Assembly: GCA_945869735.1 (NCBI GenBank)
Contig: CAMBPQ010000030.1
Span: forward strand, 1 to 34,001
DNA from: Planctomicrobium piriforme
GTDB lineage: Bacteria; Planctomycetota; Planctomycetia; Pirellulales; UBA1268
Direction of reading: 5' to 3'
Length of the DNA: 34,001 bases
Positions within the stretch are counted from its first letter, which is position 1, and each line of letters starts with the position of its first letter. The notes under the pieces were generated by a model that saw only the letters and a list, made by a program, of their open reading frames with translations, made no database searches and was not told the origin of the DNA. Shown here in pieces: positions 1 through 33,233 of this stretch. The position numbers and the translations under genes are program-made.

Positions 1-178
1 TCGCGCTTGGGGCTTCCTGACGGGAGGCAAGCTGCACGGATGATCGAACCGATTCTTGATCGTGAGGAGCATGTCACCGCCGGTGAACCAATCCGGCACC
101 GTTTCGCCCGCGACCCCACGGGCGCACTGCATGGGCAACCCCACGCCCACAAAGTTCCCCGAAGGACCTTCTTTCTTA
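1..178 (-). repeat. Degenerate copy of the intergenic mosaic repeat (R1), cut by window edge
   Basis: This gap starts inside a repeat and ends at the gntP stop codon. The core GGGGCTTC (reverse complement of GAAGCCCC) is at 9-16, followed by the CTGACGGGAG flank seen in other copies. Positions about 56-108 match pieces of the 190-bp module (GATCGTGAGGAG, then CACCGCCGGTGAACCAATCC), but the stretch between them is missing compared with the copy at 27847-28000, so this copy has an internal deletion. Read on the minus strand, the end next to gntP begins TAAGA and contains ACTTTGTGGGCGTGGGG, which loosely resembles the terminal inverted repeat of the family. No gene is supported here; the small open frames are not convincing. 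Confidence 0.6.
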
Positions 179-8447: not shown

Positions 8448-9758
8448 TCAGTCGTCAAGCACGCTCAGGCAGACGCTCCTGCCGGAGACGACATCCGACG
8501 CGTCGATGTGGGCGACGGCCTTCTGGATCGCCGTCGTGCCGCAGGCGTGAGTCATGATCACCAGTGGCACCACGCCGCCGGCCGCCCCGGACGGATCGTG
8601 CTGAATGACCGAGGCAATCGAGATGCCGTGCTCGCCGAGAATGCCCGTGATCCGCGAGAGCACGCCCGGCCGGTCGTTGACGCAGACCCGCAGAAAATGC
8701 TTCTCCGTCATGTCGATGCCGCTGATTCGCGCGGCCGGGCTGTCGGCGTCGAGCACGCCGGTGGTCCGGAAGGTGATCGCGGCGCGGCCCACGACGGTGT
8801 CGATGATGTCGGCGACGACGGCCGACGCGGTGGGCATCTGCCCGGCGCCCAAACCGTGGAAGAACATCCGGCCCACAGCATCGCCGACGATGCTCACGGC
8901 GTTGAAGGCGCCCCGCGTCTCTGCGAGCGGCGTGCCGATTTTTACCAGCGTTGGCGCCACCCGCATCGCGAGTTTGCCGTCGCTGCGGCTGGCCACCGCT
9001 ACCAGCCGGATGCGGTAGCCGAGCTCAGCGGCATGGCTCATCAGATCGCTGTCCACGCCCTCGATGCCGGTTCGCGGGATCTCGCCCCATGGCACCCACA
9101 CTCCGAAGGCGAGGTGCGCGAGGATCGCGAGCTTCTGGGTCGCGTCGGTGCCGTCGACGTCCATCGCGGGATCGGCCTCGGCATAGCCCTTGGCCTGCGC
9201 GAGCTGAAGAACCTCCGCGTAACCGGCCCCGTCCTCCTCCATCTTCGAAAGAATGAAGTTGCTGGTGCCATTCAGGATGCCGCGGATGCTCTCAATGCGA
9301 TTGGCCGCCAGACATTCACCGATCGCGGCCACGATCGGAATGCCGCCGGCGACGGCCGCCTCGAAGGCGATCGACCGGCCCTTGCGACGGGCGAGCTCGA
9401 AGAGTTCCGGGCCGTGCTCAGCCAAGAGCGCCTTGTTGGCGGTGACCACGTCCTTTCCGTTCTCCAGCAGTTCCACCATCATTGACCTCGCCGGCTCGAG
9501 GCCGCCGACAAGCAGCGCAGCGACCGAGATCGACGAGTCGCGGGAGACGGTGCCGATGTCGGTCGACACCCGGTCGGCCGGCAGCCGCAGGCCCCGGTCG
9601 CGGGCCGGGTCGCGGCAGACCGCCCGCTCCACAAGGATCGGCCGCCCGGCCTGGCGGGTGATGTGGTCGGCCGACTCGACGAGCAGGCGGACCACGCCCG
9701 ATCCGACGGTGCCGAGGCCGACGACACCGACGCGGACGGGCTTTGCCGAAGAAGTCAT
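8448..9758 (-). CDS. hom: Homoserine dehydrogenase with C-terminal ACT domain
   Basis: Reduces aspartate semialdehyde to homoserine with NAD(P)H. This 436-residue protein has the Rossmann nucleotide-binding motif VGVVGLGTVGSGVV at residues 9-22, VVTANKALLAEHG, the catalytic-domain signature AFEAAVAGGIPI, GILNGTSNFILSKM, and AKGYAEADPAMDVDGTDA. The C-terminal about 80 residues form an ACT domain (FLRVCVNDRPGVLSRITGIL), usual for threonine-sensitive enzymes. It is the first gene of the hom, homoserine-kinase-like, lysC operon. Its promoter should lie in 9759-9940, where I see no convincing -35/-10 pair. Confidence 0.95.
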   Translation of the reverse strand: MTSSAKPVRVGVVGLGTVGSGVVRLLVESADHITRQAGRPILVERAVCRDPARDRGLRLPADRVSTDIGTVSRDSSISVAALLVGGLEPARSMMVELLENGKDVVTANKALLAEHGPELFELARRKGRSIAFEAAVAGGIPIVAAIGECLAANRIESIRGILNGTSNFILSKMEEDGAGYAEVLQLAQAKGYAEADPAMDVDGTDATQKLAILAHLAFGVWVPWGEIPRTGIEGVDSDLMSHAAELGYRIRLVAVASRSDGKLAMRVAPTLVKIGTPLAETRGAFNAVSIVGDAVGRMFFHGLGAGQMPTASAVVADIIDTVVGRAAITFRTTGVLDADSPAARISGIDMTEKHFLRVCVNDRPGVLSRITGILGEHGISIASVIQHDPSGAAGGVVPLVIMTHACGTTAIQKAVAHIDASDVVSGRSVCLSVLDD

Positions 9759-10274
9759 GGGAAAGAATGCTTTCGCAGGTGAGAGATGAGGATCGTAATG
9801 AGCCTAGCCCACGGCGGAAAGCGAAGGTGGGCGGGCCGGCAGATCGGGGCGATTTTCGTCCCGGCGCGGCCGGCGACCTGCGGAAATGCGTGTCTTCCGC
9901 GTCGTCCTGCTCCCTCATGAATACGAGGCGTCGCGTTGCCTCAAGAAGCCCCAATCGCAAGCGCGGGGAATGCGGGCCGCCTCGATGCGGTGCCGGAATG
10001 GTTCGCCGGCGGTGACATGCTCGCCGCCGGGGGATTTTGCTACAGGATGCCCGCTTGGCCGCCGGGGCGTCGCTCGTGAGTCGCAAAGATTCCCAGGCGG
10101 CTGCGCGTGCCCCCGACCGGCTCCTCACGATCGGATGCCGCCAGGAAGCCCCAAGCGCGAGCTGGTTCTCGTACGACGGTCCCAGTTCCCGGCCGTCGCT
10201 GACGACGACCTCGATCTTGATGGTATTTTTCACGATAGTGGTGAGGCGTTTGCCATCGCGCTCGGCTCGTACCG
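9759..10274. other. 516-bp divergent intergenic region containing repeat R2
   Basis: This gap separates hom (minus) from the propeller gene (plus). Its middle, 9938-10162, is a copy of the mosaic repeat. 9759-9937 and 10163-10274 show no supported gene. On the minus strand around 10170-10260 a short open stretch reads RLTTIVKNTIKIEVVVSDGRELG, which looks protein-like but has no start, no stop context and no family I recognise; it may be a remnant. Promoters for both flanking genes must be in this region but were not identified. Confidence 0.5.
9938..10162 (+). repeat. Mosaic repeat copy R2 with two cores flanking the 190-bp module
   Basis: The GAAGCCCCAA core occurs at 9945 and again at 10145 in the same orientation. 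Between them lies the roughly 190-bp module shared with R4 and R5: GGTTCGCCGGCGGTG, GGGGGATTTTGCTAC, GCTCGTGAGTCGCAAAGATT and CCGGCTCCTCACGATCGG all recur. The module holds a hairpin, CCGGCGG (10006-10012) with CCGCCGG (10024-10030). This is the only copy that sits upstream of genes on both sides rather than behind a stop codon. Confidence 0.85.
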
Positions 10275-13080: not shown

Positions 13081-14760
13081 GTGGCCAAACAGATGGTGTT
13101 CGACGACGAGGCTCGCCAGCCGTTGCTCGCCGGCGTTTCCAAACTCGCCCGTGCCGTGAAGAGCACGCTCGGCCCCCGCGGCCGCAACGCTGTGCTCGAC
13201 AAGGGCTGGGGCTCGCCCAAGGTGACCAAGGACGGCGTCACCGTCGCCGAAGACATCGATCTCGAAGATCCGTTCGAGAATCTCGGCGCCCAACTCGTGA
13301 AGGAAGCCGCCAGCAAGACCAATGATGTCGCCGGTGACGGCACGACCACCGCCACCGTTCTTGCCGAGGCGATCTTCCGCGAGGGGATCAAGATGATCGC
13401 GGCCGGCGCCGACCCGATGGCGCTGTCGCGGGGCATCCACAAGGCTGTCGAGGCGGTCTCGAAGGCGATCCTTGCGATGGCCACCCCGATCAACGAGAAG
13501 AACAAGAAAGAGTTGATGCAGATCGCCACGATCGCGGGCAACAACGACCCGACGATCGGCAACGTCCTCTCCGAGGCCTTCCTCAAGGTCGGCAAGGATG
13601 GTGTGATCACGGTTGAGGAGGGCAAGCAGGCCGAAACGACGGTCGACGTCGTCGAGGGCATGCAGTTCGACCGCGGCTTTCTCTCGCCCCACTTCGTGAC
13701 TGATGCCGAGAGCCAGGTCTGCGAGCTCGAAAATGCCTCCATCCTCCTCTACGAGGAGAAGATTTCGAGCGCTAAGAATCTCGTGCCGCTTCTCGAGGCG
13801 ATCAGTAAGTCGGGCAAGCCACTTGTGATCATCGCCGAAGATGTCGAGGGTGAGGCGTTGGCGACGCTGGTGGTCAATAAACTCCGCGGCATCGTCCAGT
13901 CTGTGGCTGTAAAGGCTCCCGGCTATGGCGACCGCCGCAAGGCCATGCTCGGTGATATCGCCGTGCTCACTGGCGGCCAGGCGATCTTCAAAGACCTCGG
14001 CATCTCGCTCGACGGCGTGAAACTCACCGACCTCGGTCGGGCCAAGAAGGTGATCATCGACGCGGAAAACACCACCATCGTGAGCGGTGGTGGGACAAAG
14101 GTGGCGATCGACGGCCGTGTGGCACAGATCCGCGACGAGATCTCGAAGACCACCAGCGACTACGACCGTGAGAAACTCCAGGAACGGCTGGCGAAGCTCG
14201 CCGGTGGTGTGGCCCAAATCAACGTGGGCGCTGCGACCGAGACGGAGATGAAGGAGCGAAAGGCTCTCATCGACGACGCCAAGAGTGCCGTGCAGGCTGC
14301 CCTCGCCGAGGGCGTGGTCCCGGGCGGCGGCGTGGCCCTGCTCCGCAGCGAGAAGGCGATCGAGAAACTCGACCTCGAGGGAGACGAGAAGATGGGCGCG
14401 TCGATCGTGAAAAATGCCCTCAAGTATCCGCTCGAAGCGATCGCCGAGAATGCGGGCACCGATGGTTCGGTCGTGGTCAACCGCGTTCGGCACATGAAGG
14501 GGAAGAATGACGGCTACGACGCCGACAAGGGCGAGTATTGCGACCTCGTCAGCGCTGGCGTGATCGACCCGGCCAAGGTCGTGCGGACAGCTCTCCGAAA
14601 CGCCGCCAGCGTTGCGGCGCTGCTGCTCACTACCGACTCGCTCATCACCGAGATCCCCAAGGATGAGGAGCCGGCGGGTGGCGATGGCCACGATCACGGC
14701 ATGGGCGGTGGCATGGGCGGCGGCATGCCAGGCATGGGTGGCATGGGTGGCATGATGTGA
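13081..14760 (+). CDS. groEL: Chaperonin GroEL, copy 1 (with GGM tail)
   Basis: ATP-dependent 60-kDa chaperonin subunit, 559 residues. Visible GroEL features are [24 protein letters not shown] (residues about 30-53), the ATP-binding [12 protein letters not shown] (DGTTT at 86-90), [15 protein letters not shown], the hinge/apical [13 protein letters not shown], and [10 protein letters not shown]. The C terminus has a flexible Met/Gly tail ([18 protein letters not shown]) preceded by GHDHGMG. The substitution pattern [10 protein letters not shown] differs from the more canonical copy 2. The GTG start has GAGAGGAG upstream. It lies directly upstream of groES, which is followed by a second groEL, so groES is flanked by two chaperonins. 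Confidence 0.97.
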
Positions 14761-15235: not shown

Positions 15236-16855
15236 GTGCCCAAGCAACTGATGTTCGACGACAGCGCCCGCGCCAAACTGCTCAAGGGCGTCGAGAAGTT
15301 GGCCGGAGCGGTGGCCGTGACCATGGGCCCGACTGGCCGCAACGTGATCATCGACAAGTCGTACGGCGGCCCGACGGTGACAAAGGACGGCGTGACGGTG
15401 AGCAAGGAAGTCGATCTCGAGGATCCGTTCGAGAATATGGGCGCCAAGCTTGTTAATGAGGTCGCTTCGAAGACCTCGGATCTTGCCGGCGACGGCACGA
15501 CGACGGCGACTGTGCTTGCCCGGGCGATCTTCCGGGAAGGCACGCGAAACGTGGCCGCTGGCTCGAACCCGACGGCCGTCCGCCGGGGGATCGAGAAGGG
15601 CGTCGCAGCCGCGGTCCAGCGGTTGATGGAGATGGCCCGCAAGGTGGAGCGTCCGGAGGAGATCGCCCAGGTTGGTGCCATCAGCGCCAACAACGACCGT
15701 GCCATCGGTGATCTGCTGTCGGAGGCTCTGCAAAAGGTGGGCAAGGACGGGGTGATCACCGTTGAAGAAGGCAAGACGACGGAGACGACCGTGCGGTTCG
15801 TCGACGGCATGCAGTTCGACAAGGGCTTCATCTCGCCCTATTTCATCAACAAGCCGGCGGAGATGGAGTGTCAACTCGACGACGCGCTCATCCTGATCCA
15901 CGAGAAGAAGATCTCGAACCTCCGCGACCTGCTTCCGCTGCTCGAAAAGGTCGCTCAGTCGGGCAAGCCGTTGCTGATCATCGCCGAGGAAGTTGATGGC
16001 GACGCGCTGACGGCGCTCGTGGTCAACAAACTCCGTGGTGTGCTCAACATCTGCGCCTCGAAGGCTCCTGGTTTCGGTGATCGTCGCAAGGCGATGCTCG
16101 GCGACATCGCCACGCTCACCGGTGGCACGCTGATCAGTGAGGACCTCGGGCTGAAACTCGAGAGCCTCGACCTCTCCCATCTCGGAAAGGCCAAGAGCAT
16201 CACCGTCGACAAGAGCGAGACCACGATTGTGCAGGGCGCCGGCAAGCAGTCGGACGTGCAGGCCCGCGTGCATCAGATCCGTACGCAGATCGAGAACACC
16301 GAGAGCGAGTACGACCGCGAGAAACTGCAGGAGCGGCTCGCGAAACTGACCGGCGGCGTCGCGATCGTCTCCGTCGGCGCTGGCACCGAGGCCGAGATGA
16401 AGCAGAAGAAGGCCCGCGTCGAGGACGCCCTTCACGCGACCCGTGCCGCCGTGGAGGAGGGAATCGTTCCGGGCGGCGGTGTGGCCCTGCTCCGCTGTCG
16501 CGAGGCGGTCGAGAAGGCCCGCGCGCAGGCCAAGGGCGACGAGAAGATCGGCGTCGACATCATCCTCCACGCCCTTGAGGCCCCGATTCGGCAGATCGCA
16601 GAAAACGGTGGGATTGACGGTGCTGTCGTGGCGGACGAAGTGTCTCAAAAAGATGTCAACATCGGCTACGACGCCAACAAAGGCGAGTATGTCGACATGA
16701 TCAAGGCTGGCATCATCGACCCGGTGAAGGTGGTCCGTGTGGCGTTGACCAATGCCGCGAGCATCGCGGGTCTCTTGCTGACGACCGAGGCGATCGTCAC
16801 CAACCTCGATAAGGACGAAGCGAAGAAGCGGAAGATCGAGGGCAGCGTTCGCTAA
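15236..16855 (+). CDS. groEL: Chaperonin GroEL, copy 2 (without GGM tail)
   Basis: A second 539-residue chaperonin. It keeps the canonical landmarks [84 protein letters not shown] (with the aspartate equivalent to the ATPase residue D398 of E. coli) and [12 protein letters not shown]. Unlike copy 1 it ends in a charged tail, [13 protein letters not shown], and lacks the Gly/Met repeat. By residue pattern it is closer to textbook GroEL than copy 1 in the ATPase region. GTG start with GAGGAG 9 nt upstream, 99 nt after groES; groES plus this gene form a conventional groESL order. Confidence 0.97.
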
Positions 16856-18951: not shown

Positions 18952-19143
18952 ATGCCCAGTTGCCCGGTCTGTAGCTCCCATGTCGATCTGGCGACCACGC
19001 CAACGGTACCGTTTTGCTGCGATCGCTGCCGGCTGATCGACCTGGGCCGCTGGCTCGACGAGGGCTACGGAGTGCCTCAGCCGCGGAAGCCGGGGCCTGG
19101 CGAGCCCCAGCCCGATCCAGCAGACGCCGAGGACGACGGCTGA
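18952..19143 (+). CDS. yacG: YacG-type zinc protein (DNA gyrase inhibitor family)
   Basis: A 63-residue protein. The four-cysteine zinc site is visible as C4-x-x-C7 and C22-x3-C26 (an additional C23 is present), and CRLIDLGRWLDEGYGVP is the hallmark YacG segment. In E. coli YacG binds GyrB and inhibits gyrase. The spacing between cysteine pairs is one residue shorter than in E. coli YacG if C22 is used. The C-terminal tail is Pro/Asp-rich. It follows the FmdB-like gene by 3 nt; in other bacteria yacG usually sits with coaE, so this location at the end of a chaperone block is less common. Confidence 0.88.
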   Translation: MPSCPVCSSHVDLATTPTVPFCCDRCRLIDLGRWLDEGYGVPQPRKPGPGEPQPDPADAEDDG

Positions 19144-19185
19144 CGTCGCGGTTGGGCCGCGCGACGTATACTCTCGCTCCCGTCC

Positions 19186-19206
19186 GGGCCGGCACGTGTC
19201 CGGCCC
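19186..19206 (+). terminator. 7-bp GC hairpin between yacG and the membrane-protein gene
   Basis: GGGCCGG at 19186-19192 and CCGGCCC at 19200-19206 are perfectly complementary around the 7-nt loop CACGTGT. No T tract follows, and the hairpin is 23 nt before the next ATG. It could end the chaperone transcript partially or be a 5'-leader structure of the membrane-protein gene. TATACT at 19167-19172 resembles a -10 element but lacks a properly spaced -35. Confidence 0.4.
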
Positions 19207-19229
19207 CCACGCATCCGCGAGGTATCCGC

Positions 19230-20396
19230 ATGACGTCAGAGCATCATCCGTCCGGCACTATCGTTCATGAGATCCGCTGGAGCGATGCCTTTCCCTGGTG
19301 GCTGCTCTTCCGAGCTGCCGGCGTGGCCTTTTCGCCGACGGTGATCCTGCTCGCTGCACTTGGTGCGGTGGCCACGTGGGCCGGATGGTCGGCGTGCGAC
19401 TCGCTCGGGTTCGCAATCGCCGACGGGATGGCCGATAGTGGCGGCGTTGGCGGATTGGTGTTGCCGGGCGCAGCCGGTGGAGCGGTGGCAACGCCGCTCG
19501 CCCCGAGCGTCGCCGCGATGCCCTGGCTCCATGATTTGGGCCGGCGGCTGCCACGGCCCCTGGCCGAACTGGTAACGATGGTGAACGTCCCGTTCAGCCC
19601 CACCGCCACGTGGAGCCAGAGGCTCGGTGCGCTGGCTCGGATCGGCTGGTTTGTGCTTGTCTGGTCGATCTTCGGCACGGGCATCACTCGGCACGTTGCG
19701 CTGAAACTCGTCGGTGAGGAGGCACCAGGGCCGATCGGAGCGACGCTCTACGGATCCCGGAAGTGGCTGCCCTCGTTCAACTCCGTGCTGTTCGTACTCT
19801 TCGGAATCGTGGCCCTGAGCATTCCTGGTGCGTTGCTCGGCCTCGCGATGCGAACGGAGTGGGGCCTCGCATTCGCTGGGGTGGTCTGGCCGCTGGTTTT
19901 GCTCGGCGCGGTCGTGCTGGCGATCCTGGCCATCGGGGTAGTGGCCGGCTGGCCTCTGATGGTGGCGGCCGTGGGCGTCGAGCGGGGCGATAGTTTCCAG
20001 GCGATCTCGACCGCTTTTTCCTACCTCTACCAGCGGCCGCTGCACTACGCCTTCTATGCGCTCGTGGCGCTTCTCGTGGCTGTCCCAGCACTTGCAGTCG
20101 CGGGTCTCTTTGCCGATGCGACGGGCACCCTGGCGATGTGGGCGGCGAGCTTTGGGATGGGCCACGAACGCACGGCAGCGGTCCTCGATGGACTCGCCGG
20201 CACGGGAGGCGAAGCGGCGACGTGGGGCGTGAAGGCGATTTCTTTTTGGAGTCGCGGCCTCGCCACGCTGCTGTCGTCGTTTGGATGGGGTTATTTCTGG
20301 GCGATCGCGACCGCGGCCTACATGCTCCTGCGGCAGGACGTCGACGGGACGGAACTCGACGAGGTCGTCATCGACGAGCCCGGCACCGAAGGCTAG
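19230..20396 (+). CDS. Conserved multipass membrane protein, function unknown
   Basis: A 388-residue protein with about five or six hydrophobic segments: around 24-50 (FRAAGVAFSPTVILLAALGA), 130-150 (IGWFVLVWSIFG), 185-205 (FNSVLFVLFGIVALSIPGALL), 215-250 (two adjacent segments, VVWPLVLLGAVVLAILAIGVVAG), 275-295 and 350-370. Charged clusters lie between them and the C terminus is acidic. I do not recognise a catalytic domain; similar proteins are typical planctomycete hypothetical membrane proteins. The ATG at 19230 has GCGAGGT upstream; the frame is open further upstream but overlaps yacG. Its TAG stop is part of the terminal inverted repeat of element R3. Confidence 0.8.
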   Translation: MTSEHHPSGTIVHEIRWSDAFPWWLLFRAAGVAFSPTVILLAALGAVATWAGWSACDSLGFAIADGMADSGGVGGLVLPGAAGGAVATPLAPSVAAMPWLHDLGRRLPRPLAELVTMVNVPFSPTATWSQRLGALARIGWFVLVWSIFGTGITRHVALKLVGEEAPGPIGATLYGSRKWLPSFNSVLFVLFGIVALSIPGALLGLAMRTEWGLAFAGVVWPLVLLGAVVLAILAIGVVAGWPLMVAAVGVERGDSFQAISTAFSYLYQRPLHYAFYALVALLVAVPALAVAGLFADATGTLAMWAASFGMGHERTAAVLDGLAGTGGEAATWGVKAISFWSRGLATLLSSFGWGYFWAIATAAYMLLRQDVDGTELDEVVIDEPGTEG

Positions 20397-20592
20397 AGCG
20401 GATTCGACTTCCCGCATTCGATTTGCGTGGAACGCCGGCTTCGGGGGCGGCAAAAGTCTCGTCGCTGAGGGCCGCGGCGGCCCGACGCTCCTCGAGCGTT
20501 CGCCGACCCCCGTGCCTCCCGTCAGGAAGCCCCAATGGAGTGGCGGGCCGTATCCCCCGCGCCGGTGCTCCACCAAAGTCGAATGCGGTCTA
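20393..20592 (+). mobile_element. MITE-like element R3 with terminal inverted repeats containing both neighbours' stop codons
   Basis: TAGAGCGGATTCGACTT at 20394-20410 and the reverse complement of 20576-20592 (TAGACCGCATTCGACTT) match at 15 of 17 positions. A second, inner inverted copy follows, CGCATTCGATTTGCGTGG versus CGCATTCGACTTTGGTGG. Inside are a 23-bp block at 20443-20465 shared with R6, a 24-bp block at 20487-20510 shared with R5 and R6, and a GAAGCCCCAA core at 20526. There is no open frame of note. The TAG of the upstream gene (20394-20396) and the TAG of the convergent gene (20590-20592) are the tips of the repeat. The 200-bp size and lack of transposase suggest a non-autonomous element. 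Confidence 0.75.
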
Positions 20593-20961
20593 ACGGTCGG
20601 GCCCACCGCACCAGCGGGCGAGCAATGCCGGCAGGCCACCCATCACCTCGCCGCGGCTCACGGCGTCGTCGGCGCCGGCTGCGACCGCTGCGTCGAGTCG
20701 GTCCTTCCAGACATGCGGTCCGTAGGCAACCACCTTCGCGGATGTGCCGCCGAGTTCGCGGGCCCGCGTGATGTGCGCCGCGATCTCGCCTGCGAGTGAT
20801 TGGAGGTCAAGGAGCACGACGTCACACGCAGCCCCTTGAGGCGTGCCGGCCGGCGAAGCAAGTGTCTCCACGGCGGCTCCTGCCGCGTGGCCGATCCCCA
20901 CGAGCCGGCTGGTGGACATCAGGTCGGACGAGATCAGGAGTATCCGGGTCGGCTGGTTCAT
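20590..20961 (-). CDS. Small receiver-like (CheY-fold) protein
   Basis: A 123-residue protein whose hydrophobic pattern resembles a response-regulator receiver domain: beta-1 TRILLISSDLM, beta-3 CDVVLLDLQSL with an aspartate at the phospho-acceptor position, beta-4 AKVVAYGPHV, and the helix ending AAVAAGADDAVSRGEV. The acidic pair after beta-1 is reduced (SSD) and the conserved lysine after beta-5 is not obvious, so it may not be phosphorylated normally; no output domain is present. The ATG at 20961 has GAGGAG 5 nt upstream. It begins 7 nt after the PII-like gene stop, so the two are almost certainly co-translated. The assignment is from pattern only. Confidence 0.6.
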   Translation of the reverse strand: MNQPTRILLISSDLMSTSRLVGIGHAAGAAVETLASPAGTPQGAACDVVLLDLQSLAGEIAAHITRARELGGTSAKVVAYGPHVWKDRLDAAVAAGADDAVSRGEVMGGLPALLARWCGGPDR

Positions 20962-20968
20962 TGGCTCC

Positions 20969-21274
20969 TCATACTGCTTCCGGACCACGGACGGTCCGGT
21001 AGATCTGCACGGCCTCGTGCATGGGCAGCACGAACAGCCGGCTCGCCGCTTCACCGCCGGCGGTGAGCACGGCTGAGATCGAGTCGACGGTGCGTTCGAC
21101 GAAATCGTCGTTGACGGCGATCTCCATCATCACCTCCTGGGCGAGGGGATCGTCCGCGGCAAGATCGTAGCCATGCACGTCGCATACGGTCAGCCGCGTG
21201 ACCTGCAAGGCGGCGAGTGACTGCCGGACGCTTTCCACCTGGGCGGGCTTGATGACGGTGACGACCAGACGCAT
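20969..21274 (-). CDS. PII-like signalling protein lacking the T-loop
   Basis: A 101-residue protein with the ferredoxin-like PII fold: RLVVTVIKPAQVESVRQSLA at the N terminus, LQVTRLTVCDVHGYD as strand 2, MMEIAVNDDFVERTVDSISA, and FVLPMHEAVQIYRTVRG at the C terminus, which corresponds to the GlnB C-loop region. Compared with GlnB/GlnK, the T-loop with its uridylylated tyrosine is reduced to a few residues (LAADDPLAQ), and the ATP-binding B-loop G-D-G-K is replaced by GGEAASR. It is therefore a PII-like, not a classical nitrogen PII protein. AGGAGG lies 5 nt before the ATG. It sits 18 nt after a secreted metalloprotease gene and before the receiver-like gene. Confidence 0.8.
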   Translation of the reverse strand: MRLVVTVIKPAQVESVRQSLAALQVTRLTVCDVHGYDLAADDPLAQEVMMEIAVNDDFVERTVDSISAVLTAGGEAASRLFVLPMHEAVQIYRTVRGPEAV

Positions 21275-25319: not shown

Positions 25320-27797
25320 ATGGCTCACCTTCGCAGCACCCGGGTTCGGGCGGTCATTTCTTGGGGATTCGCGGCTGTCTTCGTGGCCTCGGCGTGCGTT
25401 CTCGATCTGGCTGGCGGCCGCGGACTTGCCGCCGAAGAAGCTGACAACCCTCTGGCCGCGGTCGCGGCGGCCCTTGGCGACCCGGTGGCGGTGACCGCTG
25501 TGATCCAGCCCGGCGACGCGGGCAAGCCCGACATCCTGGCGGTCACCGCGAAGCTCGAGGACGGCTGGCACCTCTATGCGATCTCGCAGAAGCCAGGCGG
25601 TCCGATCGCTACGAAGATCAAGGTGGATGCCGCATCGCCGCGGCAGGTGTCGGGGGCGTTTGCCCCCGATTCTGCTCCCCAGACGCGAACGGTCGACGAT
25701 GTGCCCGCTTGGAAGGGGCTCGTGATCGAGGAGCACTCCGGCACGGTCACGTGGCGGGCACCGCTCCAGGTGGGAGCGGGAGAAATACGGGGCGCCGTGA
25801 GCCTGCAACTCTGCCAGGACACCACCTGCCTGCCGCCGCAATCGATCCCGTTCACCGCTCCGGCCGTGGGGCCGCCGGCACCGGCGGCGACGCGTGCCGG
25901 TGGTGCTCCCAAGGTCATCGAGTATGAGCCGCAGCGGTCTCACGCCCGGGTACGGGCCGCCTTTCGCAGGCCGTCCGCCGCCGGATCGACGGCCTGGCCG
26001 TTGGTCGTCGAGCTTGTGCCGATGGAGGGCTGGCATTTCTACAAGCCGGCGGACTCCGCGGAGAGCAAGGTCGGGCAGGGGAAGCCCACGATCGTCTCGG
26101 CCGCGGCGGGCGAGGGTGCCACCATCGAAAAGGTGACGGTCACCAAGGTCACTCCCACGATCCATGCGGAGTTGGCCGAGTCTGGAGCGGTTGACGGTCC
26201 GGTGGTGCTCGAACTCCTCGTCAACGCGCCACCCGGTGTCGGCGGCCCGCGTACGGTGGACGCGGTCGTTGGGTTTCAGACCTGCAGCGACCAGACCTGC
26301 GACGCACCCACGGCGGTGAGGCTGAAGATCACGGCGCCGACCGACGGGCCGGCCTCGGGGGCCATCGCGTTTTTGGATGCCCGCTATGCCGAGGCGGCCA
26401 AGGCGGCTCTTCAGCTGGCTGCAGGCGACGACCCGCGCGCCGCGACCACCACGGCCGCGATCCCTGCTCTTTCAGCCGCGTCCGCCGCGGCCAGCATCCC
26501 CGACACAACTGCGGCTCCTTCCGCCGTGCCGCTCGCCCTGCCGCTCGCCCTCCTGATGGGTCTGGCCGGCGGGCTGCTGCTCAACCTGATGCCGTGCGTG
26601 CTGCCGGTGCTCGGGCTCAAGCTGATGTCGTTCGCGCAGCAGTCGGGCCGCGACCGCCGCGACGTGTTTCAGATGAACCTCTGGTATTGCGCGGGTGTGT
26701 TTGCCGTGTTCTTTGCGCTGGCCACGGCGAGCGTGGCGGCCAATATCGGTCTCGGCAAGGCAAACCTCGCCTGGGGCGAACAGTTCACCTCTGCCGGCTT
26801 CAATATCGCCATGATCGGCATCGTGTTCGCCTTCGCGCTGTCGTTTCTCGGGATCTGGGAACTGCCGATTCCGGGCTTCATCGGTGAGAAAGCGGGCCAC
26901 GTGCAATCGCAGGAGGGGCCCGCGGGTGCGTTCCTCAAAGGCGTCTTGAGCACCGTGCTGGCCACGCCCTGCAGCGGCCCCTTTCTCGGACCGGTGTTCG
27001 GCTTCACGCTCTCGCAGTCGACGGCCGTGACCTACGCCGTCTTTGGTGCCATCGCGACGGGAATGTGCCTGCCGTACGTCCTCGTCGGCCTCGTGCCCGG
27101 ACTGGTGAAGTTCCTTCCGAAGCCCGGTGCCTGGATGGCCACGTTCAAGGAGGTGCTGGGGTTTGTCATGCTCGGCACGGTTGTCTATCTCTTCACCTTT
27201 CTCCACCACGACTGGTTCGTGCCCACGTTGGCGCTCTTGATCGGTATCTGGGCGGCCTGCTGGTGGGTCGGCCGCGAGCAGGAGACGACCGGCGTGGTCG
27301 GCTTCGGCCGCTGGGTGCAGGCCGCGTCGGCGGCAGCGCTGATCGGTTGGGGCGCCTTCATGCTGCTCGGCCCCGGGGAATCGGTGATCGAGTGGCAGCA
27401 GCCCTTCTCTCGTGACCGGATCACCGAACTCCGCAAGAGCGGCGCCACGGTGATGGTCGACTTCTCCGCCGACTGGTGCCCGACCTGCAAGTTCAACCTC
27501 GCTTATGCGATCGAGACCGATAAGGTGCGGGCCACGCTCGAAAAAAACCGTGTGGTTCCTGTGCTTGCCGACTGGACCGACGGCTCTCCCGAGATCAAGG
27601 CAGCGCTCGAGGGTCTGCAGAGCCGCTCCATTCCGGTGCTGGCGATCTATCCTGCGGCGCAGCCCGGCGAGAAGCCTTTGGAGCCGATTGTGCTTCGCGA
27701 CCTGATCACGGAGTCACAGGTGCTCGAGGCCCTCGAGAAGGCGGGGCCCTCGCTCTTGGAAGCCGACGCAGTTCGCTCCGCATCGACCGGGCGGTAG
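25320..27797 (+). CDS. dsbD: DsbD-type thiol:disulfide interchange protein with two N-terminal DsbD-alpha-like domains
   Basis: An 825-residue envelope protein that would carry electrons from cytoplasmic thioredoxin to periplasmic acceptors. Signal segment at about 10-38. Two tandem DsbD-alpha-like domains follow, each with a cysteine pair: C165/C170 in LCQDTTCLPP and C322/C327 in TCSDQTCDAP. The membrane domain (about 405-690) has the redox cysteines in NLMPCVLPVLG (C426) and ATPCSGPFLGP (C551), spaced as in E. coli DsbD. The C-terminal thioredoxin-like domain has DWCPTCK (C720/C723). Usual DsbD has about 570 residues and one alpha domain, so the duplication explains the greater length. No strong Shine-Dalgarno sequence precedes the ATG. 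Confidence 0.9.
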   Translation: MAHLRSTRVRAVISWGFAAVFVASACVLDLAGGRGLAAEEADNPLAAVAAALGDPVAVTAVIQPGDAGKPDILAVTAKLEDGWHLYAISQKPGGPIATKIKVDAASPRQVSGAFAPDSAPQTRTVDDVPAWKGLVIEEHSGTVTWRAPLQVGAGEIRGAVSLQLCQDTTCLPPQSIPFTAPAVGPPAPAATRAGGAPKVIEYEPQRSHARVRAAFRRPSAAGSTAWPLVVELVPMEGWHFYKPADSAESKVGQGKPTIVSAAAGEGATIEKVTVTKVTPTIHAELAESGAVDGPVVLELLVNAPPGVGGPRTVDAVVGFQTCSDQTCDAPTAVRLKITAPTDGPASGAIAFLDARYAEAAKAALQLAAGDDPRAATTTAAIPALSAASAAASIPDTTAAPSAVPLALPLALLMGLAGGLLLNLMPCVLPVLGLKLMSFAQQSGRDRRDVFQMNLWYCAGVFAVFFALATASVAANIGLGKANLAWGEQFTSAGFNIAMIGIVFAFALSFLGIWELPIPGFIGEKAGHVQSQEGPAGAFLKGVLSTVLATPCSGPFLGPVFGFTLSQSTAVTYAVFGAIATGMCLPYVLVGLVPGLVKFLPKPGAWMATFKEVLGFVMLGTVVYLFTFLHHDWFVPTLALLIGIWAACWWVGREQETTGVVGFGRWVQAASAAALIGWGAFMLLGPGESVIEWQQPFSRDRITELRKSGATVMVDFSADWCPTCKFNLAYAIETDKVRATLEKNRVVPVLADWTDGSPEIKAALEGLQSRSIPVLAIYPAAQPGEKPLEPIVLRDLITESQVLEALEKAGPSLLEADAVRSASTGR

Positions 27798-28140
27798 GCG
27801 GATTAGCGCAGTGGAGTAGTGGCGTAGGTCGGGGCAGACCCTCGCCGTCTCCCGATCGTGAGGAGCCGGGGGTGACACGCGCAGAAGTCGGGGAATCTTT
27901 GCGACTCACGAGCAGTGCCCAGTCGGCCAGCAGAGCATCCTGTAGCAAAATCCCCCGGCGCCGAGCATGCCACCGCCGGCGAACCAATCCGGCACCGTCT
28001 CGATGCGACCCGTATTCCCCGCGCTCGCGCTTGGGGCTTCCTGACCGGAGACAGCGGGCACGGGCCACCCAACGTCGGTTCGAAGCCACGCGTATTCCCC
28101 GCGGTCGCGCTTGGGGCTTCCTGACGGGAGGCCTCGACTA
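27795..28140 (-). repeat. Mosaic repeat copy R4 between convergent genes
   Basis: Fills the gap between the dsbD-like and purM stops. On the minus strand it carries a GAAGCCCCAA core at 28120 and again at 28040 (80 bp apart), then the 190-bp module ending near 27847, nearly collinear with R2 and R5. Its hairpin is CCGGCG (27955-27960) with CGCCGG (27974-27979). The left edge reads TAGGCGGATTAG, similar to the R3 tip TAGAGCGGATTCG, and its TAG is the dsbD-like stop codon; the right edge abuts the purM TAG. No gene is supported in 27798-28137. Confidence 0.8.
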
Positions 28141-31540: not shown

Positions 31541-31907
31541 GAGACCGAGTTTGGTGTCATGAAGCGGCTCAGGCGCTCCTCGAGCGTTCGCCGACCCCCT
31601 TGCCTCCCGTCAGGAAGCCCCAAGCGCGAGCGCGGGGAATGCGGACGGCATTGAGACGGGTTCCGGATCGGTTCGCCGGCGGTGGCATGCTCACCGCCGG
31701 GGGATTTTGCTACGGGATACTCACGTGGCCGATGTGACGTCGCTCGTGAGTCGCAAAGATTCCCCGGCGTCTGCGCGTGCCACCCCCGGCTCCTCACGAT
31801 CGGGAGCGTATGCCGCCCGACAGGAAGCCCCAAGCGCGAGCGCGGGGAATGCGGGTAGCAATCCCGCCCCGCTCCACCAAAGGCAAATGCGTTCGAGCCC
31901 TCTTAGG
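31541..31907 (+). repeat. Mosaic repeat copy R5, most complete composite
   Basis: Most of the 491-bp gap 31520-32010 is repeat. In order: a weak left end (GAGACCGAGTTTGGTGTCAT), the 24-bp block at 31575-31598 shared with R3 and R6, core GAAGCCCCAA at 31614, the 190-bp module, a second core at 31824, and a right inverted end whose reverse complement begins CTAAGAG and continues CGCATTTGCCTTTGGTGGAG. The module's hairpin is perfect here: CCGGCGGTG (31676-31684), 7-nt loop, CACCGCCGG (31692-31700), then GGGGATTTTG. 31908-32010 holds the leader of the lipoprotein gene, with GGAG 8 nt before its ATG. Confidence 0.85.
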
Positions 31908-32010: not shown

Positions 32011-32514
32011 ATGATTGCGTGTGGCACGCCCATAAAAATCCTGTTGCTTTCGGTAGCCTGCTACCTCGGCGGCGCCGCGGGGTGTGCCCCCGCGACCACC
32101 AAGGCCCCAGCGGCCAAGCCGGCCACGGTGAGCCACGACCACGGACATGATCACGATAATGACGAGCCCGAGTCGTTTGCCGTGGGCATCGAGAAGCTCG
32201 AATCGCTGGCGGAAGATCTCACCAAAAAACTCGCCGACAATGCCGGCGAAGCGGCTGACGACGCGGTCCACGACCTGGGCCATCTCCTTGAGGAGGTCCG
32301 TGAGTTCGCCACGAAGGAAAACTTCGAAGGCGACGTGGCCGCAGCCGTCAGCAGCGCCCTCGACGAACTCGAGGAGTGCTTTGGCAAGGTCGACGAGGCG
32401 TTTCATTCCGGTGATGAAAAAGCCGATCCGGCGAAAGTGCTAGGGACGGTCAAGGAGCGAATCGAGGCGGCATTCACGTCGCTGAAGGCGAAAGTTTCCG
32501 GGGAGAAGAAGTGA
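32011..32514 (+). CDS. Small predicted lipoprotein with His/Asp-rich motif
   Basis: A 167-residue protein. The leader IKILLLSVACYLGGAAGC ends in a lipobox-like A-A-G-C, which would put the lipidated cysteine at residue 25. A short Ala/Pro/Lys linker leads to SHDHGHDHDNDE (residues 41-52), a likely divalent-metal-binding stretch. The rest (about 55-167) is acidic and helical, probably coiled coil, with a single cysteine in LDELEECFGKVDEAF. I do not recognise a family. The ATG has GGAG 8 nt upstream. The next gene starts within its stop codon (TGATG), so the two are translationally coupled. Metal handling in the envelope is an inference from composition. Confidence 0.75.
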   Translation: MIACGTPIKILLLSVACYLGGAAGCAPATTKAPAAKPATVSHDHGHDHDNDEPESFAVGIEKLESLAEDLTKKLADNAGEAADDAVHDLGHLLEEVREFATKENFEGDVAAAVSSALDELEECFGKVDEAFHSGDEKADPAKVLGTVKERIEAAFTSLKAKVSGEKK

Positions 32515-33047
32515 TGATCAGCTGCTTGCGACGCAGGTTTAGAGGGATAATGGCGGTGATGGCGCTGTGCTCGTTGACGGGCGTGGAGGCACGCGCCGAG
32601 GTCGATGTGAACGCCGTCCGTGGCTCGCTCCTGCTCGCCGAGGAGCCCGCCGGTGCGGTCACGCTTGCGGCAGCGAAGGCAAAGCTCACGCCCGCGCCGC
32701 AGCCCATCCTGGTGGCCGGTAGGATCGGGGGCCGGGGCACGGAACCCTTTGGCAGGAACGAAGCGACGTTCTCCATGCTCGAGATCCCCACCGACGACCA
32801 CGCGAAGAAGCCCGGCCACAAGCCGGACGATTGCCCGTTTTGCAAGAAGCGCAACGCCAACTCGCCGATCGCGGCCGTGACGTTCGTGGGTGCCGACGGC
32901 AAGGTGATTCCGCTGGACGCGCAGAAGCTCCTCGGGCTCACCGAAGGCCAGGACGTCGTCGTCCGCGGCACCGGTTTTTTTGACCCAAAGCTCGGTATCC
33001 CTGTGATCCAAATCACCGGCGACGGCCTCTTCCTCCGCAAGCCCTAA
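32514..33047 (+). CDS. Secreted CxxC protein, possible OB-fold, unknown function
   Basis: A 177-residue exported protein with a signal peptide (RRRFRGIMAVMALCSLTGVEARA, residues about 6-28; here split across an n-region and an h-region). The mature part has two recognisable segments: PILVAGRIGGRG...ATFSMLEIP and, near the end, GLTEGQDVVVRGTGFFDP followed by VIQITGDGLFLRKP. This beta-rich pattern resembles a small OB-like barrel. A C-x-x-C motif lies in DDCPFCKKR (C107/C110), close to His-containing DDHAKKPGHKPDD, so a metal or redox site is plausible. No named family is claimed. Start ATG overlaps the lipoprotein stop. Its TAA is the tip of repeat R6. Confidence 0.7.
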   Translation: MISCLRRRFRGIMAVMALCSLTGVEARAEVDVNAVRGSLLLAEEPAGAVTLAAAKAKLTPAPQPILVAGRIGGRGTEPFGRNEATFSMLEIPTDDHAKKPGHKPDDCPFCKKRNANSPIAAVTFVGADGKVIPLDAQKLLGLTEGQDVVVRGTGFFDPKLGIPVIQITGDGLFLRKP

Positions 33048-33175
33048 GAGATCGCGCATTCGACTCTGGTGCATCGCCGGCTCGGGGGCGGCAAAAGTCT
33101 CGTCGCCGGGGTGATGATACGCCCAAGGCTCCTCGAGCGTTCGCCGACCCCCTCGCCTCCCTCACCCGGTGCACC
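33044..33175 (+). repeat. Mosaic repeat copy R6 starting at a stop codon
   Basis: Begins CTAAGAG at 33044, the same tip as the right end of R5, then CGCATTCGACTCTGGTG. It contains the 23-bp block at 33084-33106 and the 24-bp block at 33128-33151, both identical to those in R3. The far end (TTGGTGCACCGGG, minus strand, near 33155-33175) is a shortened inverted end. It has no core or 190-bp module. The TAA of the preceding gene is positions 33045-33047, inside the tip. The gap 33048-33233 holds nothing else except GGAG about 6 nt before the next ATG. Confidence 0.75.
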
Positions 33176-33233
33176 AACCCGTCGCTCCATCCATCCCGGA
33201 CGCGATCTCAATGAGCCCCGTTCTGGAGAGACG

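Follow-up and report, generated by a model that had tools for sequence, protein, structure and literature searches.

Two convergent genes and the R3 element

The window, that is, the whole stretch of DNA analysed in this work, comprises 34,001 nucleotides of a Pirellulales genome of 3.17 Mb in 128 contigs (G000). Two convergent genes meet in it at a short repeat, R3, and the features of this locus are listed below.

19014..20396, + strand: membrane-protein gene ending at the left tip of R3; no Pfam match; the start given by our simple gene caller is 19230
20590..21054, - strand: receiver-like gene ending at the right tip of R3; no Pfam match; the convergent neighbour, kept in the family
20396..20590: R3 element proper, 195 bp, a copy of an IS630-type MITE with an extra partial tip on the left
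20394..20395: left TA of the target duplication, which is the TA of the TAG stop of the + strand gene
20591..20592: right TA of the target duplication, which is the TA of the TAG stop of the - strand gene
20394..20410, + strand: left tip of R3, TAGAGCGGATTCGACTT, 15/17 identical to the right tip
20576..20592, - strand: right tip of R3, TAGACCGCATTCGACTT, 15/17 identical to the left tip
20437..20512, + strand: conserved core, CCGGCT..GGGGGCGGCAAAAGTCTCGTCGC..CTCCTCGAGCGTTCGCCGACCCCC, with approximate ends; 92% conserved over 63 copies

The first-pass annotation had described 17-bp inverted-repeat tips with 15 of 17 positions identical, and this was borne out by a direct check, the identity being counted with the TA included. 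It had also assigned both gene ends correctly: the TAG at 20394-20396 closes the + strand open reading frame 19014-20396 of the membrane protein, and the CTA at 20590-20592 closes the - strand frame 20590-21054 of the receiver-like protein. The start proposed for R3, 20393, is one base early, since this position is the C that precedes the stop; the left TAG itself lies at 20394-20396. The window has 491 TA...TA pairs with a spacing of 120-260 bp, and no pair other than R3 has tips complementary at 13/15 positions or more. Its length of 195 bp compares with about 156 bp in the canonical copy; the right arm is of a variant form that includes a REP-like segment, and the left side carries the extra partial tip.

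When the 195 bp and one TA were removed in silico, the joined flanks read ...GAAGGC-TA-ACGGTC..., where the membrane-protein gene ends with GGC TAA and the receiver-like gene with CGT TAG, as overlapping convergent stops, and the proteins remained unchanged at 460 and 154 amino acids, respectively. We infer that the empty site of R3 would already have held both stops as an overlapping convergent pair. The same convergent pair is found without an R3-type element in most of the relatives examined, and the C termini read DEPGSES* in the element-free pair of G009 and DEPGTAG* in the G007 orthologue, compared with DEPGTEG* at R3. The orthologous stops of G009, however, are TGA and lie 3 bp apart, which counts against the empty site proposed for R3. 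A second double-stop copy was found at minus-strand coordinates 8743-8924 of stretch L168 (G000 C3), between convergent genes with the stops TAA and TAG, and its ancestral site is TTAA.

Copies of the family and an IS630-type element

A search with a 20-nt core motif, allowing up to 3 mismatches, retrieved 177 matches in the genome of the window and none with the reversed control. Genomes were sampled as 20-kb stretches, and the family was present in 32 of the 60 genomes searched, restricted to the genus and the family of the window; it was absent from all 23 genomes that represent other families of the same order. The canonical copy is about 156 bp long, (CTA)GAGCGCATTCGACTT...GATGCGCTC(TAG), and the copies, which range from 156 to 195 bp, contain no transposase gene, so that they are short, numerous and without their own transposase, as MITEs are. 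The congener G014 has 24 matches to one near-identical left-tip version, and, to judge from this near identity, its copies are a recent burst. We also observed the same insertions, with identical flanking bases, in two species (L271 of G010 and L276 of G004; L270 and L274), and some copies therefore appear to have been inherited across speciation.

The genome that carries the burst also contains a 1013-bp TA-flanked element with a transposase gene (L096, positions 1014-2026). Its tips, GATCGCGTCTGA and GATCGCGTCCCGTCTACGTGTAGCGG (..CTACGTGTAGCGG at the far end), match those of the MITE, GAGCGCGTCTGA and GAGCGCATCTCCGCTACGTGTAGCGA. The two-frame transposase scores 143 bits with the NCBIfam model transpos_IS630 (cut-off 100) and 112 bits with Pfam DDE_3. 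The shared tips indicate that an IS630 transposase of this kind probably moves the MITE. Related IS630 copies occur in G001, G011 and G019, and the transposase copies found in the genome of the window are broken. The larger IS630 copies lie mostly off stop codons, L206 in G003 being the sole exception among those checked. In L096 the transposase gene occupies two frames that meet at a stretch of eight A, which suggests programmed frameshifting.

The family thus has the traits of an IS630-type MITE, namely a TA duplication (18/18 recent copies, and R3), terminal inverted repeats in common with an IS630 element and a preference for CTAG (13/18). Two other classes were considered. REP/BIME repeats, with RAYT, a Y1 transposase, and no TA duplication, do not correspond to R3, which has a TA duplication and IS630 tips; integron attC sites were set aside, given that R3 lies between convergent genes and the copies are dispersed singly.

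Target site, stop codons and the proposed mechanism

The target was analysed in the 18 near-identical 156-bp copies of G014 for which both flanks were available. TA is present on both sides in all 18, and the empty sites are CTAG (13), CTAA (3) and TTAG (2); the base before TA is always C or T and the base after it A or G, which makes every site YTAR. A 4-bp duplication of CTAG was rejected because the left and right flanking 4-mers differ in 5 of the 18 copies, and the duplicated unit is therefore TA. The dinucleotide TA is rare in the window (0.35 of expectation). CTAG is very rare in the coding DNA of G014, with 7 sites in about 300 kb (stretches L143-L162), and most CTAG stop codons of these sampled stretches belong to element tips. 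One G014 stretch is identical to record JAFMIU010000092.1, a Pirellulales MAG.

Gene ends were called with a simple program written for this analysis. Among the 18 recent insertions, 13 have a tip whose TA coincides exactly with that of a called stop, the other 5 are intergenic and no gene is interrupted. Of the YTAR sites without an element in these 346 kb of G014, 5 are at stops, 33 are intergenic and 18 are coding. The comparison of stop and intergenic sites gave an odds ratio of 17 (p=2e-5), and of 7.3 (p=0.009) when divergent regions were left out. In the genome of the window, an exact coincidence of tip and stop is seen in 15 of 63 older copies; tip-to-stop offsets peak at 0, with 17 tips, and no other offset within 60 nt has more than 3. 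Together with the exact coincidences in G014, this peak supports the proposal, made in the first-pass annotation, that the elements target stop codons. When TA decay is taken into account, tips at stops in G000 are not clearly more frequent than the motif predicts: in old copies selection keeps the TAs of stops while other TAs decay, and counting TA-bearing tips alone inflates the figure. Pooled over G028, G001, G007, G016 and G018, 15 of 26 TA tips are at stops; other genomes gave 1/11 (G010), 2/6 (G004) and 2/4 (G012).

Removal of the element restores a stop in 13 of 13 G014 stop cases, all TAG or TAA. A YTAR site with its TA in frame was TAA or TAG before the insertion. Within the genus, the length differences to the element-free orthologues (n=12) are -1, 0, 0, 0, 0, 1, 8, 0, 0, 0, -4 and -2, so that the ends differ by at most 1 residue in 9 of the 12 and never by more than 8; at the one empty site predicted to be TAA, the closest orthologue does carry TAA at that position. 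Gene ends are not replaced: the element goes into a TAR stop that is already there and turns it into TAG.

The tips, the TA duplication, the YTAR target, the coincidence with stops, the unchanged C termini and the presence in a sister genome of a transposase gene whose element has matching tips were all observed directly. On this basis R3 is very probably a non-autonomous MITE moved in trans by an IS630-family transposase, whose entry at YTAR regenerates the stops and leaves both proteins intact, insertions in coding sequence being removed. According to this model, an IS630-family (Tc1/mariner) transposase would insert the element at the TA within YTAR and duplicate the TA. An in-frame TA of YTAR belongs by definition to a TAA or TAG stop. 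Both ends of the element start with G, and both site and tips are palindromic, so that on either strand an insertion turns the stop TAR into TA+G, that is TAG, a step which the sequences themselves show. Convergent genes with stops overlapping at CTAA, CTAG or TTAA would both be served, as at R3. Insertions that are neutral for both proteins would persist and those in coding sequence would be removed by selection; the excess at stops would then come from selection and the target motif, perhaps with some extra targeting.

Whether the motif and selection alone are sufficient appears to us evenly balanced. YTAR would be required, and stops would be the only in-frame YTAR sites surviving selection, with no added targeting. 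This agrees with the fact that YTAR covers TAA and TAG, with the 0/18 insertions in coding sequence, with the rarity of TA in the window and with the weak excess over the motif in G000. Convergent contexts also prevail, with 11/18 in G014 and 30/63 in G000 compared with 62/317 gene pairs; convergent ends are the least disturbed gene ends, which makes selection a candidate cause of the stop frequency. The young burst of G014, however, fills stops far above free intergenic YTAR sites, even without divergent regions (odds ratio 7, compared with 17 overall).

These same odds ratios are what a further preference of the transposition complex would produce, if it also favoured the 3' ends of genes, such as convergent or weakly transcribed DNA or DNA close to a terminator. 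In addition, 9 of the 13 stop insertions of G014 are convergent, compared with an expectation of about 35% (p=0.013). The same pattern would result, though, if selection acted against the disturbance of genes downstream, and the other genomes are weaker, so that we hold such a preference only as a tentative possibility.

The core of the element raises a separate question. In G000 it is 92% conserved, compared with 52-74% for the tips (63 copies). A core more conserved than the terminal repeats is the reverse of the usual MITE pattern. Nine G028 copies share an 80-nt core without mismatch and have widely different arms; although these copies were retrieved through core similarity, copies that diverged without constraint would not have kept their cores identical when their arms differ so much. 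This identity may be due to homogenisation between copies or to a host function. We also noticed that a hairpin inside the core is swapped between copies, with the versions GGGCCGCGGCGGCCC, GTGGCCGCGGCGGCCAC and GGGCGAGGATACGCCC (window 20437-20512; L064-L072). RNAalifold on 16 cores gave an invariant outer stem with no compensatory pairs, and did not resolve the variable hairpin. That the family is a stop-codon-homing MITE, with a transposase favouring gene 3' ends beyond YTAR and a core of about 76 nt now maintained by the host as a structured element, is a combination that we consider rather unlikely.

It is improbable that R3 is a non-mobile bidirectional terminator or regulatory hairpin of the host. 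The folding is strong on both strands (z -4.0 and -4.9), and the conservation of the core and the position at gene ends would suit such a role, but the TA duplications, the near-identical dispersed copies and the IS630 partner indicate mobility. No intrinsic-terminator pattern (GC-rich hairpin followed by a T run) was found in R3, and a promoter scan likewise gave nothing there; co-option of the core could still have taken place. The window as a whole has no match to Rfam RNA families at gathering score.

The first-pass annotation had offered, as its other option, that elements replaced or truncated gene ends and now supply stops from their own tip, for which it can be said that the tip carries the G of TAG, and an in-frame TA in front of the element will always read TAG, but this is hardly credible given that all 18 recent copies have a YTAR empty site in which an in-frame TA was already a stop, that the 13 empty stops are all TAG or TAA, and that the orthologues end at the same residue.

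Known systems and other repeats of the window

Insertion at TA with TA duplication is the established mechanism of IS630/Tc1/mariner elements and has been described for ISY100, and IS630 favours TA in CTAG (PMC2170065, referring to Tenzen and Ohtsubo 1991). The R3 family shares these properties and differs from IS630 and ISY100 in that they are autonomous; stop-codon occupancy is not discussed in the cited part of that report (PMC2170065). The closest parallels among small repeats come from Streptococcus pneumoniae. RUP is a 107-bp MITE thought to be moved by IS630-Spn1, with IS630-like tips, a TA target and an enrichment between convergent genes, as in the R3 family; its sequence is different, its density peaks 50-150 bp from genes and not at the stop codon, and the cited sections report no stop-regenerating logic (PMC2229807, PMC3049150). 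BOX encodes the stop codon of 36 genes without evidence of truncation, a stop-codon overlap that resembles the one seen here, but it is a composite repeat (boxA/B/C) with a link to ISSpn2, and no YTAR target or TA duplication is described for it in the cited sections (PMC3049150). The Correia elements of Neisseria are similarly MITE-like, 100-160 bp long and present in many copies; they have other sequences, and according to the cited section a 107-bp form is fused into many reading frames (PMC2229807). QMITE2 of Coxiella (150-190 bp) lies mainly in 3' untranslated and intergenic regions, and differs by direct repeats of 7-11 nt and by one case that lengthens a C terminus (PMC5896051). Beyond the systems cited here, we found no literature on insertion elements that target stop codons.

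The TA duplication and CTAG preference (IS630) and the stop overlap without truncation (BOX) are thus already known, and the regeneration of stops on both strands through YTAR, together with the high stop occupancy in a young burst, looks new. It offers a testable account of a harmless niche for a transposon in a gene-dense genome, as insertion at a gene end costs the protein nothing, and the same logic explains repeats that abut stop codons without protein truncation, as reported for BOX. It also calls for caution, since these genomes have stop codons and 3' regions that are in part the work of transposons (TAA to TAG). The unusually conserved core raises the question of its present use by cells.

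Two further repeats of the window contain parts of the family.

about 33048..33207, + strand: R6, a decayed copy of the R3 family near the TAA of the open reading frame 32511-33047
31564..31899, + strand: R5, a composite repeat with the second core segment of the family and a degenerate right tip, GGCAAATGCGTTCGAG

For R6, said earlier to start at the TAA of a CxxC protein, the membership in the family stood, but the copy is decayed, the TAA lies 0-5 nt outside the tip and there is no clean right TA. The extension of the pattern of stops at tips to R1 and R4 failed: similarity to genomic copies begins at 27837 for R4, 40 nt after the TAG of the dsbD-like gene (27795-27797) at which it was thought to start, and family tips are absent; for R1 it runs to 173, falling three nt short of the gntP TAA (176-178) that was taken as its end, and both a family tip and a TA duplication are absent. 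R1, R2, R4 and most of R5 (window 1-106, 9941-10162, 27837-28133 and 31602-31854) represent a second repeat type, in which a REP-like palindrome, GGAAGCCCCAAGCGCGAGCGCGGGGAATGCGG, and a companion segment of about 126 bp form a mosaic with the MITE. Finally, 13081-14760 and 15236-16855 are adjacent tandem paralogous genes on the + strand, with stretches 74-80% identical, probably groEL.
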